From positions 125,493 through 189,492 of the forward strand of contig JAHDID010000005.1 in NCBI GenBank assembly GCA_020630975.1: DNA of 64,000 nucleotides, written 5' to 3'. The notes below the pieces were generated by a model. The model saw nothing but the letters and a program-made list of their open reading frames with translations. It made no database searches and had not been told where the DNA came from. The DNA comes from Verrucomicrobiota bacterium (GTDB lineage Bacteria; Verrucomicrobiota; Verrucomicrobiia; Verrucomicrobiales; DEV007). A program made the translations under genes and the position numbers. Of the stretch, positions 10,183-45,948 are shown piece by piece; positions within the stretch are counted from its first letter, which is position 1; the number at the start of each line of letters is the position of its first letter.

Positions 10183-12584
10183 AAATGATGATATCAAAAC
10201 TAGTAGCTGTATTTCTATTGATCTGGCTACCCACTATCTATGTGATGGCCCAGTCCGAAGTCGATAGTGATTTACTCTCCCAATCCCGCTCCCAGCAGTC
10301 AGTCGGTAGATCGGTGCAGTCTACGATAGCGGATCTAGAGGCTCTAATCGCCGATCTGGAAAGCAATGGGCTGATCCAGGAAAGCATGGCTGATAAAATG
10401 CGCGAATCCCAAACGGTGCTCAACCGTATCAGTGAAGATAGTATACCGGCAGCCACGGCTAAGCTGAGAGCCGCAGCACTGAGTAGCGTCGGCAGGTCGG
10501 AGAATCTGGCCGATGCGACAGTCGCGGTCGATCGTATCCTAGCAGAGCTGGAAAAGACCGCAGAGGAAGTCAGTATCGAGCAGAAGCGGTCTGCCTACGA
10601 GCAGATCCTATCGGAGCTGATGACCAATAGCCAAAACCTACAGGACGAAACTCAGCAATGGGGAGAGGAGCAACTAACGGATCCCAATCAAGCCCAAGAA
10701 ACTCGCGACCAAGTGATGGATCGCCAGACCGAGATGGAGGCGCAGCTAGAGGCGCTGGCAGAGATGCTGGAGAATGAGATAGAGAAACCCGAAGGCGATC
10801 TCGAGCTGAAGGAGGAACTACAGGATATCCTCGATGCTCTGGAGGGCGAGGAATTCGAAATGCCTCAGCCTACCGAGAACGAGGAGTTCTCTTTTACCGA
10901 GAATCCCGAGACCCCGGTGGAGCAGCCGCCGACAGAAATGCCGGAGCCGAATTTTCCGCAGCCAATGGCGCAGAATATGCCGCAAGCTCAGCTACCTCAG
11001 ACCAAGTCAACGAATCAGCCAATGGCGAAGGCCAATAATCCTGCGCAACAGCAGCCAGAGGCTACTGAAACACTAGAAGCCAAAACGAGTGAGGAGATGG
11101 CAGCTACAGATAATGCTGGTGGTAAGCCTGAAGCGCCCGATGAGAAGCAGGCCGGTGAGGAGATGGCTGCTACCGGCGGTGGTAAAGAAGAACCGAAGAC
11201 GCCTGCAGGTGAAAAACCTGAGCCTAAGGAGAAGACAGAAGGCGGCGAGATGGCAGCTACTGGTGAATCGAAAGACGAGCAGAAAAAGGCTGAGCCGAAG
11301 GAAAAGCAGGAGGGGAAGGAGATGGCTGCAGCTGGCGGTGGTAAAGAAGAGCCGAAGGCGCCCGCAGGTGACAAACCTGAGCCTAAGGAGAAAACTGAAG
11401 GCGGCGAGATGGCAGCTGCTGGCGACTCGAAAGACGAGCAGAAAAAGGCTGAGCCGAAGGAAAAGCGGGAGGGTGAGGAGATGGCTGCAGCTGGCGGTGG
11501 CAAAGAAGAGCCTAAAGCGCCAGGTGCGGAAAAGTCTGATGCTAATGAGGAGAAAAGCGGTGGTGAGCAAATGGCTAAAACGGAGCAACCAGGCAAACCA
11601 AAGACCGAGCAAGAGACCAAAGGTGGTGAGAAACCCAATGCAGCTACTGAAGTAGCAAAAACGGATACCAAAGGCGAAGAAGAAGTGGGGCAAGCTGGAG
11701 GTGAGAAAGCCAAGGCAGAGACATCCGCTGAGTCCGATCTGAAAAAGAGCGGCGAAGCTATTCTGGCCAACGATGCTGGCTCAGCTCTAGAGTCGCAAAA
11801 GGACTTTCAGGAAAAGCTGGCCAATGCCCTGTCGGCTATGGGCTCCGCTATGGCCGCTAATCTACCTAGCGGCGATGACTCGGCTGAGGGTAGCCAAGCC
11901 ATGGCCGGTGGCGCGATGGGTTTACCGATGGAGCTGGCATTTGGGATTCCCGAAGCGATGGGCGACCCCATGGCTGGTATGGAGTTTGGTAGTGAGGCCG
12001 TAGGTAGTGAAGTATCCGATATGGATTTGGACGCTCTGCTCAGTGGTGAAAGCATGGAGGACGCTTCAGGGGGCGGTAGCGAGGCGCTAGCCAATAATAC
12101 CAGCCCGCCACCAGGCCAAATGCAGAATGGTCCTCCTGGTAGTCAAAGCAACTCGGGACAGGGGAGTCCTGAGCAGCAGAAAAAATCAGAGCCCGGAGAC
12201 AAGTCGAGTCAGACCCAACCTAATAACCAAAGCGGCCAGGGTAGTAGTGGGCAGCAAATGGCTCAGCAGTCGGCATCTGCTACAGGCGGAGCCTTTGCCC
12301 CGCCGATGATGTCTTCCTCCATGATGGGGAATAAAGCGGGTGAAGGTAGTGGTAATGGAGCTGCGGCATTCGATAAGCCACACGGCACTCACTACGAAAC
12401 CACAATGATCAAAAGCGGTGGCGGAGCAGTAGTTGGTAACTACACAAAAACCGACCAGTCGAAACGAAATATCGCCGAAGTCGCCCGGCAAAAGATCCAG
12501 CAAGATTACCAGCGACAGCTGCCTGCTGAGTATCGTGCGATGACGGCGGAGTATTTTGAGTTGTTAGGTTCGATGCAGGAGTGA
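10179..12584 (+). CDS. secreted coiled-coil and Lys/Glu/Pro repeat protein
   Basis: The start overlaps the previous stop (ATGA). A signal peptide (MKMMISKLVAVFLLIWLPTI, cut after VMA) leads into about 200 residues of predicted coiled coil rich in Glu and Gln. Residues about 230-530 are low complexity, including two full and one partial 53-residue repeats (GGGKEEPKAPAGDKPEPKEK type). A Met/Gly/Ser-rich stretch follows. The last 60 residues (IAEVARQKIQQDYQRQLPAE then YRAMTAEYFELLG) are compact and match the conserved end of the big proteins in such operons. I infer a fibrous or stalk-like periplasmic component with a folded C-terminal end. No enzymatic motif is visible. Confidence 0.78.
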   Translation: MKMMISKLVAVFLLIWLPTIYVMAQSEVDSDLLSQSRSQQSVGRSVQSTIADLEALIADLESNGLIQESMADKMRESQTVLNRISEDSIPAATAKLRAAALSSVGRSENLADATVAVDRILAELEKTAEEVSIEQKRSAYEQILSELMTNSQNLQDETQQWGEEQLTDPNQAQETRDQVMDRQTEMEAQLEALAEMLENEIEKPEGDLELKEELQDILDALEGEEFEMPQPTENEEFSFTENPETPVEQPPTEMPEPNFPQPMAQNMPQAQLPQTKSTNQPMAKANNPAQQQPEATETLEAKTSEEMAATDNAGGKPEAPDEKQAGEEMAATGGGKEEPKTPAGEKPEPKEKTEGGEMAATGESKDEQKKAEPKEKQEGKEMAAAGGGKEEPKAPAGDKPEPKEKTEGGEMAAAGDSKDEQKKAEPKEKREGEEMAAAGGGKEEPKAPGAEKSDANEEKSGGEQMAKTEQPGKPKTEQETKGGEKPNAATEVAKTDTKGEEEVGQAGGEKAKAETSAESDLKKSGEAILANDAGSALESQKDFQEKLANALSAMGSAMAANLPSGDDSAEGSQAMAGGAMGLPMELAFGIPEAMGDPMAGMEFGSEAVGSEVSDMDLDALLSGESMEDASGGGSEALANNTSPPPGQMQNGPPGSQSNSGQGSPEQQKKSEPGDKSSQTQPNNQSGQGSSGQQMAQQSASATGGAFAPPMMSSSMMGNKAGEGSGNGAAAFDKPHGTHYETTMIKSGGGAVVGNYTKTDQSKRNIAEVARQKIQQDYQRQLPAEYRAMTAEYFELLGSMQE
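11175..11550 (+). repeat. 159-bp in-frame tandem repeat inside the Lys/Glu-rich protein gene
   Basis: The units begin with GGCGGTGG at 11175, 11334 and 11493, exactly 159 bp (53 codons) apart. The third unit is incomplete and diverges after about 11525. Each unit encodes GGGKEEPK, KPEPKEKTEGGEMAA and SKDEQKKAEPKEK blocks. The reading frame is kept, so copy number can vary by slippage or recombination without frameshift. Confidence 0.9.
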
Positions 12585-12590
12585 TTGGGT

Positions 12591-14171
12591 ATGAAGAATC
12601 GATTTAGACATCAACATTCGCGTCAAGGAGGGGCTGCCTTCAGCTGCCCGGCAACCTTGGCCGAAGCAAGTGGCTCAGCCTGTCGGGCAGCTAAAAGCAG
12701 CCCCTCCTTGAGCGAGAGTTTCCGGCGAGAAGCGAAGCGTCCCAAGGAGCGGCGGCGTCTCGCCGCTGGGCAATCTGAGCCGTCGGGCTGGTGCGCCATA
12801 CCCGCCGCCTTAGGTACTGTGCTCGATTCTCTGGCTCAGCCTGCCGGGCGACGAGACGTGCGCCCCTCCTTGGGCGGGAGTCTCCGGTTGCATAGGTGGT
12901 TTCAGAGTATCAAGCGTCAAGGAGGGGCTGCCTTCAGCTGCCCGGCAACCTTGGCCGAAGCAAATGGCTCAGCCTGCCGGGCAGCTAAAGGCAGCCCCTC
13001 CTTGAGCGAGAGTTTCCGGCGAGAAGCGAAGCGTCCCAAGGAGCGGCGGCGTCTCGCCGCTGGGCAATCTGAGCCGTCGGGCTGGTGCGCCATACCCGCC
13101 GCCTTAGGTACTGTGCTCGATTCTCTGGCTCAGCCTGCCGGGCGACGAGACGTGCGCCCCTCCTTGGTCGCATGCGTGTTATTCATCTTCTCTATCCTTT
13201 CATCCCACGCCGAGGAGCAGCGAGTCAGCTCCATCGAGCTGACACCTCACGCTCGGCGTGCTATCGATCGCGCTTTGGTCTATCTCGAGCGTGAGCAACG
13301 TCCTGATGGTAGCTGGGGGCTGGAGCGCTACTGGGTGGCGAATACTTCGCTGGCGACGATGGCGTTTATGGTGCAGGGCCATGTGCCTGGCAAAGGCAAA
13401 TATGGCGAGACGATCGAGGATGGCGTTGAATACCTAGTCAGTCAGGCACAGAAAAGTCCGGATGGCTATATCGTCGATATCTCTAGTGGTACCTTTTACC
13501 AGCATGCTCTGGCAGTGATGGCTCTATCAGAGGCCTGGGGGCAATCGAAGAATCTTCAGGTCGGCCCCGCGGTGCGCAAGGCTACCAATGTGATACTGAA
13601 AAGCCAGAACCAGGAAGGTGGCTGGGGCTACAATCCCGATGCTCGCCAGCCGGGAGATCTGTCGATCACCATCATGGGCATCGAGGCGCTGGTCTCGGCG
13701 AAGGAGGCCGGTGTGCTGGTGCCTGATAGTGCACTGGAGCGAGCCAAAAACTTTATCTACGCTTGTCAGAGTAAAGAGACCGGTGCCTTTTGGTACAAAC
13801 CGAGCCGACAGGACGAAACCAATGCCTACCGAATGGGCGCTGGTCTATTGGGGCTGCAGCTGGCAGGCGACCTCGACTCCGATGCTCTGAAGCAGGGCTG
13901 GAAATTCCTCATGAACGAGGGCGTCAAAGATGGCTGGGCATTCAAGGAACGAAACGATTGGTTGGATCAGTTTTACTGTGTGCAGGCCTGTTATCAGTCA
14001 GGCGATCAATATATCAATTTCTGGTACCCCAAGGCTGCCGAAAAGATTATTAGTCGACAGGAGCCTAGCGGCAAGATCGCTGGCGATGGCAATATGCCTC
14101 ACGGCGGAACGGCTGTCGCTACCCTAGTCCTAGCGGTTCCCTATCGATTTCTACCTATTTTCCAGCGATGA
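12591..14171 (+). CDS. prenyltransferase/squalene-oxidase-like repeat protein with disrupted signal peptide region
   Basis: The ATG at 12591 is chosen because GGAG lies 9 nt upstream; TTG at 12585 is also possible. The functional part begins after residue about 205 with ARRAIDRALVYLEREQRPDG and continues with alpha/alpha repeats (QNQEGGWGYNPD, DLSITIMGIEALV), a fold shared by prenyltransferases, terpene cyclases and many PVC operon proteins of unknown function. A signal-peptide core LVACVLFIFSILSSHA sits immediately before it. Between the basic start (MKNRFRHQHS) and this core lie about 180 residues encoded by a duplicated palindromic repeat (12621-13167). If translation starts at 12591 the export signal would be split; TTG 13164 or GTG 13176 could restart translation just before the core. 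The gene overlaps the next by ATGA. Confidence 0.75.
   Translation: MKNRFRHQHSRQGGAAFSCPATLAEASGSACRAAKSSPSLSESFRREAKRPKERRRLAAGQSEPSGWCAIPAALGTVLDSLAQPAGRRDVRPSLGGSLRLHRWFQSIKRQGGAAFSCPATLAEANGSACRAAKGSPSLSESFRREAKRPKERRRLAAGQSEPSGWCAIPAALGTVLDSLAQPAGRRDVRPSLVACVLFIFSILSSHAEEQRVSSIELTPHARRAIDRALVYLEREQRPDGSWGLERYWVANTSLATMAFMVQGHVPGKGKYGETIEDGVEYLVSQAQKSPDGYIVDISSGTFYQHALAVMALSEAWGQSKNLQVGPAVRKATNVILKSQNQEGGWGYNPDARQPGDLSITIMGIEALVSAKEAGVLVPDSALERAKNFIYACQSKETGAFWYKPSRQDETNAYRMGAGLLGLQLAGDLDSDALKQGWKFLMNEGVKDGWAFKERNDWLDQFYCVQACYQSGDQYINFWYPKAAEKIISRQEPSGKIAGDGNMPHGGTAVATLVLAVPYRFLPIFQR
12621..13167. repeat. tandemly duplicated palindromic (REP-like) element within a coding sequence
   Basis: Copy 1 is 12621-12914 and copy 2 is 12915-13167; they are 294 bp apart (98 codons) and differ at only three positions over 253 bp. 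Each copy opens with CAAGGAGGGGCTGCC and about 75 bp later has the complement GGCAGCCCCTCCTTG, forming a long stem. A second small hairpin (GCGGCGTCTCGCCGC) and a further partial copy of the CCGGGC...GCCCCTCCTTG arm follow. The same core occurs twice at 41874-42060. The insertion contains no stop in the host frame. Confidence 0.92.
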
Positions 14172-15598
14172 AGTTTAGCTGTTTATCTCTACTCGTGATT
14201 TTCGCCTTTTGCCTGATGGCAAAAGGCGAAACGGTGATTCACCCTGCTGGCCAAAAAATCGTGCTGGATGGAGTCTCTGGTGAATGGCCATCTCTCGAGG
14301 GCGCGGCGAAGCTGGAACCAAAAAACGGAGTCGAGCTACAGGTGTCGCACGATCGAAAACACGTGCTACTACTCGCGACTGTCCCCGATCTATCTCACCG
14401 CCCTCTGCCTCACGATCGATTGGTCGTGAAGCTCCACTGGGAAAAGCCACCTAGGGCATCGGGTCGCTTTGTCGAGTGGGAGATCGGTCAAAACAGCCAT
14501 GCCCAGATCGATGGTAAAGAATCGGTGCAGCTCCATGCCGCAGTCAGGCATGACCTATTGGCTGGTGAGACCACCTACGAGTGTGCGATACCTCTATCCT
14601 CTATACCGTCGAACTACCAGGGCCTATCGCTGAGTGCGCAGGTGTGGGATGAGAGCGCTACTGACAAACCAATCGCGGAGTGGACTGAGCAGCCGATCTC
14701 TCTCAATGAATTCACCAAAGCTCAGGAGGAGGCAGGACGTATTCTCAATAATACCGATTTCGACACGCTGACTCCAGAGCAGGCTCATGATCTTCTCACT
14801 CATACCATTCCCTCGGTTGGCAATACAAGTAGCGGGTTCCGAGCCTTTAGAGAGGCGCTGAATCGCACCGACTACAGCGATGTGGATAAAGCCAAGACGA
14901 TCGCTCGCTTTCTACACCAGCACCCAGACAATCCCAATGCCAATGGCATTATCCTGATGCTATTCCGATCGCGCCTAGGAACTCTGGGCTGGCCCAAAAG
15001 TCTCAATGTGGTGAAAGCAGTCTCGCAATCCGCCAAAGTGCCAAGAGAACAGGTCTACCAGGGCCTACGTGGACACTACATCGGCAAACCCGAGCTAGTC
15101 TTGAGAGGCTGGAAAGTGATCGGGCCATTTCCCTACGACGAAGACGCGACTCAGAGGAACTCCACTCTACCGCCGAGCCTGAAAAAGATCACCCTGCAGG
15201 AGCGCTACACCATCGATAACCAAACGATCACTTGGCGCCCCATCCAATATACCGAAGAACATTTCTGCGATATCCGCAAAAGCCTAGCCACCGAGGGCCA
15301 CGGCAAAGCCTATGCCGTGACTTGGGTCAACTCTGCCAAAACTCAGCTCGCCGCTATGGAGTTTTTCAGCCAGAGCCCTACTCAAGTATGGATCAACGGT
15401 CGTAGCGTTCGAGTATCCATTCAGTCCAAAGACGAAATCCCCATCTACCTAAATGCCGGTTGGAATCAAATTTTGGTAGAGAATGAGTCGGTGTCTACCG
15501 GCAAAAACGCCGATGCCGAGTCCTGGCAGTTCAAGCTGCTGCTGCTCCATCCTCTAGGTATGGGTGAAGTGCCAGACATGCAGATGATGGCTGATTGA
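14168..15598 (+). CDS. secreted CBM9-like protein
   Basis: Last gene of the MoxR operon; the start overlaps the previous stop (ATGA). It has a signal peptide (MKFSCLSLLVIFAFCLMAKG). Residues about 25-180 look like the N-terminal CBM9-type beta-sandwich (VIHPAGQKIVLDGVSGEWPS, then HDRKHVLLLATVPDLS). A helical middle (190-310) is followed by a second beta domain with WKVIGPFPYDE near 316 and AGWNQILVENESV near 435, a pattern common in verrucomicrobial secreted proteins. No catalytic motif is seen. It probably binds carbohydrate or another envelope ligand; that is inference from the fold. The signal-peptide codons also encode a perfect 14-bp inverted repeat. Confidence 0.75.
   Translation: MKFSCLSLLVIFAFCLMAKGETVIHPAGQKIVLDGVSGEWPSLEGAAKLEPKNGVELQVSHDRKHVLLLATVPDLSHRPLPHDRLVVKLHWEKPPRASGRFVEWEIGQNSHAQIDGKESVQLHAAVRHDLLAGETTYECAIPLSSIPSNYQGLSLSAQVWDESATDKPIAEWTEQPISLNEFTKAQEEAGRILNNTDFDTLTPEQAHDLLTHTIPSVGNTSSGFRAFREALNRTDYSDVDKAKTIARFLHQHPDNPNANGIILMLFRSRLGTLGWPKSLNVVKAVSQSAKVPREQVYQGLRGHYIGKPELVLRGWKVIGPFPYDEDATQRNSTLPPSLKKITLQERYTIDNQTITWRPIQYTEEHFCDIRKSLATEGHGKAYAVTWVNSAKTQLAAMEFFSQSPTQVWINGRSVRVSIQSKDEIPIYLNAGWNQILVENESVSTGKNADAESWQFKLLLLHPLGMGEVPDMQMMAD
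14200..14231 (+). other. perfect 14-bp stem hairpin inside a signal-peptide coding region
   Basis: TTTCGCCTTTTGCC at 14200-14213 is followed by the loop TGAT and the exact complement GGCAAAAGGCGAAA at 14218-14231. It lies 32 nt after the ATG of the last operon gene and is not followed by a U-tract, so it is not a standard terminator. It could slow translation or act as an mRNA processing or stability element. Confidence 0.7.
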
Positions 15599-41873: not shown

Positions 41874-42060
41874 ACCAAAGCATCCCGCACTGGGAGGGGC
41901 TGTTTTAACTGCCCGGCTACCCCGACCACCCTTCGAGCCCAACCTCAGAAACCGTGGATTCGACTTCAGTCGAAATCATCACACCCCGGCCAAAGCATCC
42001 CGCTCAAGGAGGGGCTGTTTTTAACTGCCCGGCTACCTCGGCCAACCTTCGAGCCCCAAC
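41874..42060. repeat. two copies of the AGGGGCTG...CTGCCCGGC palindromic repeat family
   Basis: Copy 1 (about 41874-41940) and copy 2 (about 41989-42060) share CCAAAGCATCCCGC, AGGGGCTGTTTT, AACTGCCCGGCTACC and TTCGAGCCC. Copy 2 begins CAAGGAGGGGCTG as in the element at 12621, and the match to that element continues through CTGCCCGGC and GGCCRA over about 43 bp. Between the copies, TTCGACTTCAGTCGAA (41960-41975) is a small palindrome. It lies directly downstream of gluconokinase and forms the left edge of a repeat-rich accessory island. Confidence 0.85.
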
Positions 42061-44886: not shown

Positions 44887-45948
44887 TCAGCCTGCTCTGC
44901 CGAGCGCGTTGAGTCGTAGATCTCTGAGAGTCACCATACCATCCCAGTCTGCTCCACGCATTGGGCGGGCACCGGTCTTTCTTACTGACGAGGGAGACGT
45001 TAACTTGCTCCGATGCGTCTGGAATGTCGATTCTACAAATCTAGCTGAACCAATGACCGCTCCGTCGGTGAAATACCGCACACGGTGCAACAGCACTTCA
45101 CCCTTAGACAGTTTGCCGTTGCGACTGATTTCTTCATCCACTTGCTCGGCGGTAAAGCCTAAGCGGCCCTTCATACCGCTATTGGGATCTTCCAGCAGCT
45201 CGATTCCTTTCTCGTAGAGCAGTTGCCGATAGGCAGAGCTAATTGATCTCCAGCTGGGCGATGAAGTCGGCCTACCACCTCGGTGAGAATAGAGGCTAGC
45301 TAGACCCTTTTGAGCTAATTTGTTTCCGCCCAGTGCTGCCGCGTAGCCGCACCAGCGATAATCCTCTGGCTTATCGACGATACCGGCCCGTATAGGATTA
45401 AGGTCGATGTAGGCAGATAACTCAGAGAGAGCTTTTAGTGTGTTCTCCACAACTGGGCTTTTGAAGCGTCCATCCCAGAGCACACCCTTACGTTTGTGCT
45501 CTTTATTGATGTAGTCGCCGATCCTTTTCTGAACCTCTTGCATGAAGTTAGACAAACTGCCCCGACGATGTTCATACCGATCGATGACCTGTTGAGTGTG
45601 CCAAGTATCACCAGTTTTCTTATCGACCTTTTCGGCACGAGCGAACTCGTCTTTCAGATCCCGCAGATAGTCATCACGATACAGGGCGGAAGAGATCTTC
45701 ATCAATTTCTCTTTGTTCAAAGGCTCCCGAGATGTCTCGCTGACGATGCTCACCAATAAGTGAATATGGTTCGACATGACGCAAAAATTAATCAGTTGGA
45801 CACCATAAAGCGCACTAGCAGCGCGGATGATCTTTACGATCCGGTCACGACGTTCCGGGGTGTCGAAGTACCACTTCTTATCGATAGTTCTGGCAATACA
45901 ATGGTACGCGCAAGCATCGGGTTCCAAGATAAGTCGCGGTAATCTCAT
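44887..45948 (-). CDS. REP-associated Y1 (RAYT/IS200-like) transposase
   Basis: A Y1 HUH single-strand transposase of the REP-associated type. The start at 45948 (MRLPRLILEPDACAYHCIAR) is preferred; the frame also opens at 45987. The HUH motif is MSNHIHLLVSIV near 56, and the conserved catalytic-Tyr region is LSELSAYIDLNPIRAGIVD near 190, giving the single Tyr nucleophile. DYRWCGYAAALGG is also typical. A C-terminal extension (about 230-353) carries a helical domain with a charged tail. Such proteins mobilise or maintain short palindromic repeats. No IS200 terminal ends or TnpB were seen, so it is domesticated or RAYT-like rather than a standard IS. Confidence 0.88.
   Translation of the reverse strand: MRLPRLILEPDACAYHCIARTIDKKWYFDTPERRDRIVKIIRAASALYGVQLINFCVMSNHIHLLVSIVSETSREPLNKEKLMKISSALYRDDYLRDLKDEFARAEKVDKKTGDTWHTQQVIDRYEHRRGSLSNFMQEVQKRIGDYINKEHKRKGVLWDGRFKSPVVENTLKALSELSAYIDLNPIRAGIVDKPEDYRWCGYAAALGGNKLAQKGLASLYSHRGGRPTSSPSWRSISSAYRQLLYEKGIELLEDPNSGMKGRLGFTAEQVDEEISRNGKLSKGEVLLHRVRYFTDGAVIGSARFVESTFQTHRSKLTSPSSVRKTGARPMRGADWDGMVTLRDLRLNALGRAG

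Follow-up and report, generated by a model that had tools for sequence, protein, structure and literature searches.

Tandem REP-like palindromes open in frame within the predicted signal peptide of a Verrucomicrobiota gene, and the same split in at least 11 further genes

A gene from a Verrucomicrobiota bacterium (assembly GCA_020630975.1, contig JAHDID010000005.1), which encodes a predicted secreted prenyltransferase/squalene-hopene-cyclase-like protein, has a palindromic repeat insert within its signal peptide. The insert of ∼182 codons lies between MKNRFRHQHS(R) and (L)VACVLFIFSILSSHA, and the reading frame is uninterrupted from either of two candidate start codons to the stop codon (Table 1). 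Positions are those of the window, which is the whole 64,000-nucleotide stretch of DNA that was analysed. The repeat is one of many, and at least 11 further genes of the genome are split likewise. A preliminary description of this DNA, whose view did not extend to these other genes, had placed the repeat in frame between a basic start and a hydrophobic core, and this arrangement is confirmed. It is quite likely that REP-type dimers arrayed in tandem make up the insert, that translation starts at the ATG and reads through them, and that such arrays are tolerated inside cleavable export leaders.

The insert consists of two 257-nt units (12620–12876 and 12914–13170), which are 98% identical and spaced 294 nt apart, in agreement with the ∼180 repeat-encoded residues and two near-identical copies 294 bp apart that were described initially. 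Each unit has two hairpins, designated H1 and H2, and an example of the peptide encoded by the insert is QGGAAFSCPATLAEANGSACR. Folding of the region 12585–13250 gave z = −11.9 when compared with 20 shuffles. The hydrophobic stretch as first read holds for its core, but its first leucine is encoded by TTG 13164, the last codon of the repeat itself.

The more likely start codon, ATG 12591, is situated 6 nt past the stop codon of the upstream gene and, as judged by eye, is preceded at 9 nt by AGGAG. The product is squalene-hopene-cyclase/prenyltransferase-like by Pfam, and the NCBIfam matches are below their cut-offs. Cleavage of the protein is predicted between SHA and EE. The upstream 801-aa protein displays imperfect K-, E-, P- and G-rich repeats (EEMAATGGGKEEPKAP-like) at about 11050–11750.

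Table 1. Coordinates of the split gene, its insert and its neighbours in the window
Feature	Position	Strand	Remarks
Upstream operon gene, 801 aa	10179–12584	+	Element core begins 39 nt past its stop
Host gene	12585–14171	+	Start TTG 12585 or, more likely, ATG 12591; stop 14169–14171
Start codon and N-terminal stub MKNRFRHQHS (basic, ten codons)	12591–12620	+	
Element H1 copy 1, 87-nt palindrome, 29 codons	12624–12710	+	Translated as QGGAAFSCPATLAEASGSACRAAKSSPSL
Element H2 copy 1, longer imperfect palindrome	12743–12872	+	Match to the same covariance model, E 1.8e-8
Inter-unit spacer	12873–12917	+	Comparable spacer ahead of elements at L051 and L047 (by eye)
Element H1 copy 2	12918–13004	+	
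Element H2 copy 2	13037–13166	+	Final codon TTG 13164; terminal residues RRDVRPSL basic
Hydrophobic core and cleavage region of the predicted signal peptide, VACVLFIFSILSSHA	13167–13211	+	Mean hydropathy 3.12 over 9 residues
Downstream gene	14168–15598	+	Overlaps host gene by 4 nt

The element has an 87-nt palindromic core with a mean column identity of 87% in an alignment of 27 copies. The sequence CAAGGAG at the foot of the palindrome is invariant in all 27, and each palindrome, viewed by eye, resembles two small hairpins in inverted order. The element ends (e.g. 12918–12925 and 12997–13004, CAAGGAGG / CCTCCTTG) have what we take to be the appearance of a ribosome-binding motif and its complement. 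The exact ends are uncertain because the palindrome seems to run on into some flanks. A covariance model found at least 111 matches on both strands of this genome, which merge to at least 67 places and at least 57 clusters. No target-site duplication was seen by eye in the flanks of the 67 places, and no exact empty site was found. Element counts here and in related genomes are lower bounds, since scoring covered 150 of the 3,923 first-look candidates of this genome and at most 135 per genome in relatives; one other locus (L048) and the H2 hairpins of the window are absent from the matches listed. A home-made hairpin finder detected a single hairpin across all sequences supplied and missed the known elements of L041, and it was discarded. 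Elsewhere in the window, 41998–42043 partially matches the element over a short stretch (34 nt at 91% and 40 nt at 85%).

Relatives of this bacterium have palindromes whose ends are the same and whose arms differ. Their end pattern, defined by the CAAGGAG foot, is CAAGGAGNGGC followed after 35 to 65 bases by GCCNCTCCTTG. It is found in 9 of the 33 genus genomes and in 12 of 74 genomes of the family, these representing 4 of 18 genera; its reversed control had 0 matches. A search with the element DNA was positive in 3 of the 33 genus genomes, and the covariance model in at least 11 of the 33, mostly weakly. All these counts include the present genome. An exact 24-base pattern was found in one stretch of the genome_contigs collection, in a search that possibly excluded the window's own genome; the contig bears the label Akkermansia muciniphila MAG, and the element there is intergenic. 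On a contig with this label, a related element is positioned between exbB-like and exbD-like genes as judged by eye (L238, 3267–3358).

The gap context of the 57 clusters listed, assigned by script, is tandem in 31, convergent in 19 and divergent in one, and six clusters adjoin a called gene on just one of their sides; one cluster scored as convergent (L067, 1350) is really in a tandem pair. Gene calls came from a home-made hexamer score and are not an annotation. The nearest facing stop codon is 10–45 nt away in 28 of the 54 clusters listed, and no listed element of this genome is located deeper than 40 nt within a predicted coding segment. A gene at L051 matches the RAYT model NF047646 (83.2 bits, cut-off 80) and is adjoined by two elements, one right after its stop codon and the other overlapping its 5′ end (L041, 1309–1427 and 2064–2173); their best-scoring strands are opposite. 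The element thus resembles a REP/RAYT system, and it is probably mobile, mobilized by a RAYT transposase. The window also has a Y1_Tnp transposase match on the minus strand (about 45718–45915, in a 371-aa open frame), one of 16 such matches genome-wide, and the covariance model found no element within its locus (L043).

In at least 12 genes of this genome, the frame is open through an element situated between an ATG-led stub and a hydrophobic core. Eleven of these are among the 57 clusters listed, and the twelfth, L048, was found by BLAST and is outside the covariance-model census. The set comprises the window gene and those at L047, L048, L051, L053, L059, L067, L076, L083, L124, L128 and L130. 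Downstream of the element, the split genes show a hydrophobic core and a small-residue cleavage region; signal-peptide features were judged by hydropathy and by eye. Examples of stub and core are MRTFRQRSKFRD / GLILWLLLCVGLGAA (L059), MKRFFHNVIA / VIAAAIFLASSLHA (L083) and MKRSFRN / GAVALVLLFGPPTQA (L128), and ten stub and core pairs, when joined, have 18–34 residues, which is roughly ordinary signal-peptide size. With L052 in place of L048, the last 15 residues of the insert have a net charge of +2 to +4 in 10 of 12 genes, and therefore the core usually again follows basic residues. The insert ends in a non-basic stretch in the other two, and four of the 12 stubs are neutral or negative in net charge. 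Pfam searches on ten of the host proteins revealed six PSCyt/PSD proteins (one with WD40 repeats), one sulfatase and one member of the endonuclease/exonuclease/phosphatase family; two have no family. The frame is likewise open across an element in the RAYT gene, whose name implies a product that is not secreted. A diverged element variant at L048 (4032–5342) and L067 (1307–4087) encodes LRR.SLQLTDFPLP, which is common to both split genes.

The split genes mostly display a tight-operon geometry. In 11 of the 12, the distance from the upstream stop codon to the start codon is −4 to +10 nt; the second ATG was used for L124, and the upstream frame of L051 is only 79 aa long. The exception is L059, which is outside a tight operon (60-nt gap). 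The element of L047 starts ∼28 codons into the gene.

Genes related to the split genes have uninterrupted signal peptides, and the best support for the insertion reading, which stands, comes from two other split genes whose orthologues are without the insert. The L128 gene has 19 relatives, 69–73% identical overall, of which 18 have a short leader and no insert by eye and one is truncated. In 13 of the 19, as in this genome, the start codon and the upstream stop codon share a 4-nt overlap. Two relatives of the L059 gene (71% and, for a partial match, 76% identical) start with MRAIKLLSFVV and MRVIKLLSLFV and have no insert. The closest relatives of the L083 gene (67% and 65%) start with MKASHLLPFLLL and MNFKDISFLVF, and the L053 gene has seven relatives, 36–51% identical, with most starts unclear. 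The parts of a Sec signal peptide, namely an N-region, a hydrophobic core and a small-residue cleavage site, are found in relatives, and also across the two halves of the split leaders (hydropathy, by eye). A covariance-model scan of 64 loci from relatives (29 for the window gene) detected no element at E ≤ 1.

The comparison proposed earlier is weaker for the window gene itself. Its 29 relatives' loci have no element and most have ordinary short signal peptides by eye, but the mature parts of these proteins are 22–33% identical, and a search of the 29 loci for three genes adjacent to the window gene found none of them. With identities of at most 36% and no shared neighbours, the relatives of the window gene may be paralogues.

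Two readings of the window gene were offered in the preliminary description, one with translation through the repeat and the other with restart at TTG 13164 or GTG 13176. In the general form of the latter, the element would be a 5′ leader, translation would begin at its terminal TTG or a nearby GTG to give a short signal peptide, and the ATG stub would be a relic. Both candidate codons are present in the window gene. The element end ...CTCCTTG puts a TTG just before the core in most cases, and a TTG, GTG or ATG is found within or just after the element in 10 of the 11 split genes for which start codons were listed. In addition, Di Nocera and colleagues caution, in the accessible text of their paper (PMC3733652), that an extragenic location is possible for many N-terminal REPs. 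However, a start after the element would let out-of-frame insertions survive too, and about two thirds of insertions would then be out of frame. This was assessed in codirectional genes located downstream of an element, divided into those without an ATG between element and core and those with their own ATG. The no-ATG genes are open through the element in 12 of 12 cases versus 3 of 17 for own-ATG genes (p = 9e-6), i.e. frames are open beyond chance. The base set, genes within 400 nt downstream, gave 10 of 10 including the RAYT gene and L052 (versus 3 of 17, p = 3e-5), and L067 and L076, which had not passed the filters of that set, were added to make 12. Omitted from the main test is L074, a low-complexity array with N runs that has no ATG and is not open through the element; with L074 counted against, the result is 12 of 13 (p = 6e-5). 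L130, with an ATG three codons past the element, was assigned to neither group in the main test. Removal of the RAYT gene and L052 from the base rows leaves 8 of 8 versus 3 of 17 (p = 2e-4). In the strictest variant, where in addition L074 counts against and L130 joins the controls, the figures are 8 of 9 versus 4 of 18 (p = 0.002). Signal peptides were scored in 10 of 10 versus 8 of 17 (p = 0.005, Fisher), with classes assigned by eye and no weight placed on the difference. The frame test argues against restart past the repeat as a general rule. Furthermore, L067 has no ATG, GTG or TTG between stub and core. In the window gene, AGGAG precedes ATG 12591 and by eye no ribosome-binding motif is found ahead of the internal candidates. 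For these reasons reading through is favoured over restart, which appears unlikely.

Coincidence could also be considered, whereby elements are in intergenic gaps, the open frames are fortuitous and genes use ordinary downstream starts. Three control genes (L058, L060 and L125) are indeed open through the element with their own ATG after it, and the consensus element is open in three of six frames by eye. Against this, the split genes other than L130 are without an ATG between element and core (L048 being outside this check), and the start in relatives is located at the upstream stop codon; we regard coincidence as very improbable. An assembly error that duplicated the repeat would concern the window case alone. 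The assembly is a repeat-rich draft of 158 contigs, and some element copies are at contig ends. Yet the two copies differ at ∼2% of positions, a similar spacer is found ahead of elements at other loci, and the same split is seen elsewhere with single elements, so that such an error has little to recommend it. Restart as a general rule was rejected on the frame test, and pure chance and assembly error as the whole explanation were rejected too.

Elements in other species provide a few comparable cases. In one (G012), a sulfatase-like gene, so classified by eye, reads MRRAG, a 67-nt element and LILALVSVVQA, with its ATG overlapping the upstream stop codon; the element has a different sequence and the same ends. 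Two further genomes (G031 and G022) have possible split cases in which other start options are present. Elements are found in frame inside PSCyt/PSD-like proteins, at linker and loop positions by eye, in G029 (L245, 5355–5430) and G013 (L261, 1501–1562). No split signal peptide was found in 14 further element stretches, 12 from other genera and two from this genus.

The reading-through interpretation suggests how the arrangement may have arisen and persisted. The window insert would be a tandem array of REP-type palindromic dimers, probably mobilized by RAYT. Elements would be placed shortly past an upstream stop codon, which in tight operons corresponds to about codon 4–16 of the next gene. 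If the next gene encodes a secreted protein, an in-frame insertion between stub and hydrophobic core would survive: the element has no stop codon in that frame, and it usually ends in basic residues, which again place positive charge ahead of the core. Initiation would take place at the original ATG, and ribosomes would, at the present day, run through the hairpins. We infer that the export machinery uses the internal hydrophobic core and that the entire sequence ahead of it is cleaved off by signal peptidase, so that the mature enzyme is unaltered. Leader insertions may remain because of their placement with respect to the upstream stop codon and because insertions that damage other proteins are lost. 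A strict leader-only rule is contradicted by the RAYT gene and by the G029 and G013 cases. Perhaps the element family has adapted to coding sites, being stop-free in the frame used and usually having a basic end that serves as a replacement N-region, and could thereby enter the export signals of operon genes and leave these functional, but this seems doubtful.

If such an adaptation had nevertheless taken place, signal peptides of operon genes would constitute a safe harbour for a RAYT-driven element, and the resulting leaders of ∼50 to 200 residues may alter the targeting or expression of secreted enzymes. The split genes suggest why repeats persist inside genes at the signal-peptide boundary. 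They form a natural series of at least 12, with stub and hydrophobic core ∼29 to 182 residues apart, and raise the testable question of what distance between its parts a bacterial signal peptide tolerates. A second testable question is whether REP elements at gene 5′ ends are really translated, which is often doubted in the accessible text of PMC3733652.

The element shares several properties with REP/BIME sequences and their RAYT transposases. It is a small, dispersed palindrome present in many copies (at least 67 places here) and is located mostly in tandem and convergent gaps near 3′ ends, with few in divergent gaps; a RAYT-model gene is flanked by element copies. According to the accessible text of PMC3733652, REPs are likewise found near the 3′ end of the upstream gene in tandem and convergent gaps. 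Single REPs are described there as 20–40 bp long, in superfamilies tagged GTAG or CGTC. The 87-nt core of the present element is longer, and its foot is CAAGGAG instead of a published tag; therefore it is placed in neither superfamily. REPs inside genes have been reported, with most intragenic GTAG repeats in Opitutus terrae, a member of the Verrucomicrobia, and the term signal peptide has 0 occurrences in the main text of that paper (PMC3733652). The in-frame cases of the present genome, in contrast, concentrate at the signal-peptide boundary.

The Rickettsia palindromic elements are another close known system, and palindromic repeats reportedly occur in Wolbachia as well. The Rickettsia elements, about 105–150 bp in length, are found inside unrelated genes, as described in the accessible portions of PMC10969869 and PMC2229807. 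Compared by description, the present element is similar in being a coding palindrome inserted in frame into many unrelated genes (12 here) and differs in that its main target is the cleavable leader and its likely agent a RAYT. In the open-licence literature, as far as accessible, no description was found of palindromes at the signal-peptide boundary across many genes. The Yersinia palindromic repeat fusion YPO1552 (Delihas, PMC2229807) is similar in that a palindromic repeat is joined in frame within a signal peptide, and as far as the accessible text relates, it is one named gene in which a hydrophobic-rich repeat helps to form the predicted signal peptide. In the present genome, at least 12 genes have an existing signal peptide interrupted by a repeat that is mostly hydrophilic. 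What is new is thus a variant of the known intragenic REPs and Rickettsia palindromic elements.
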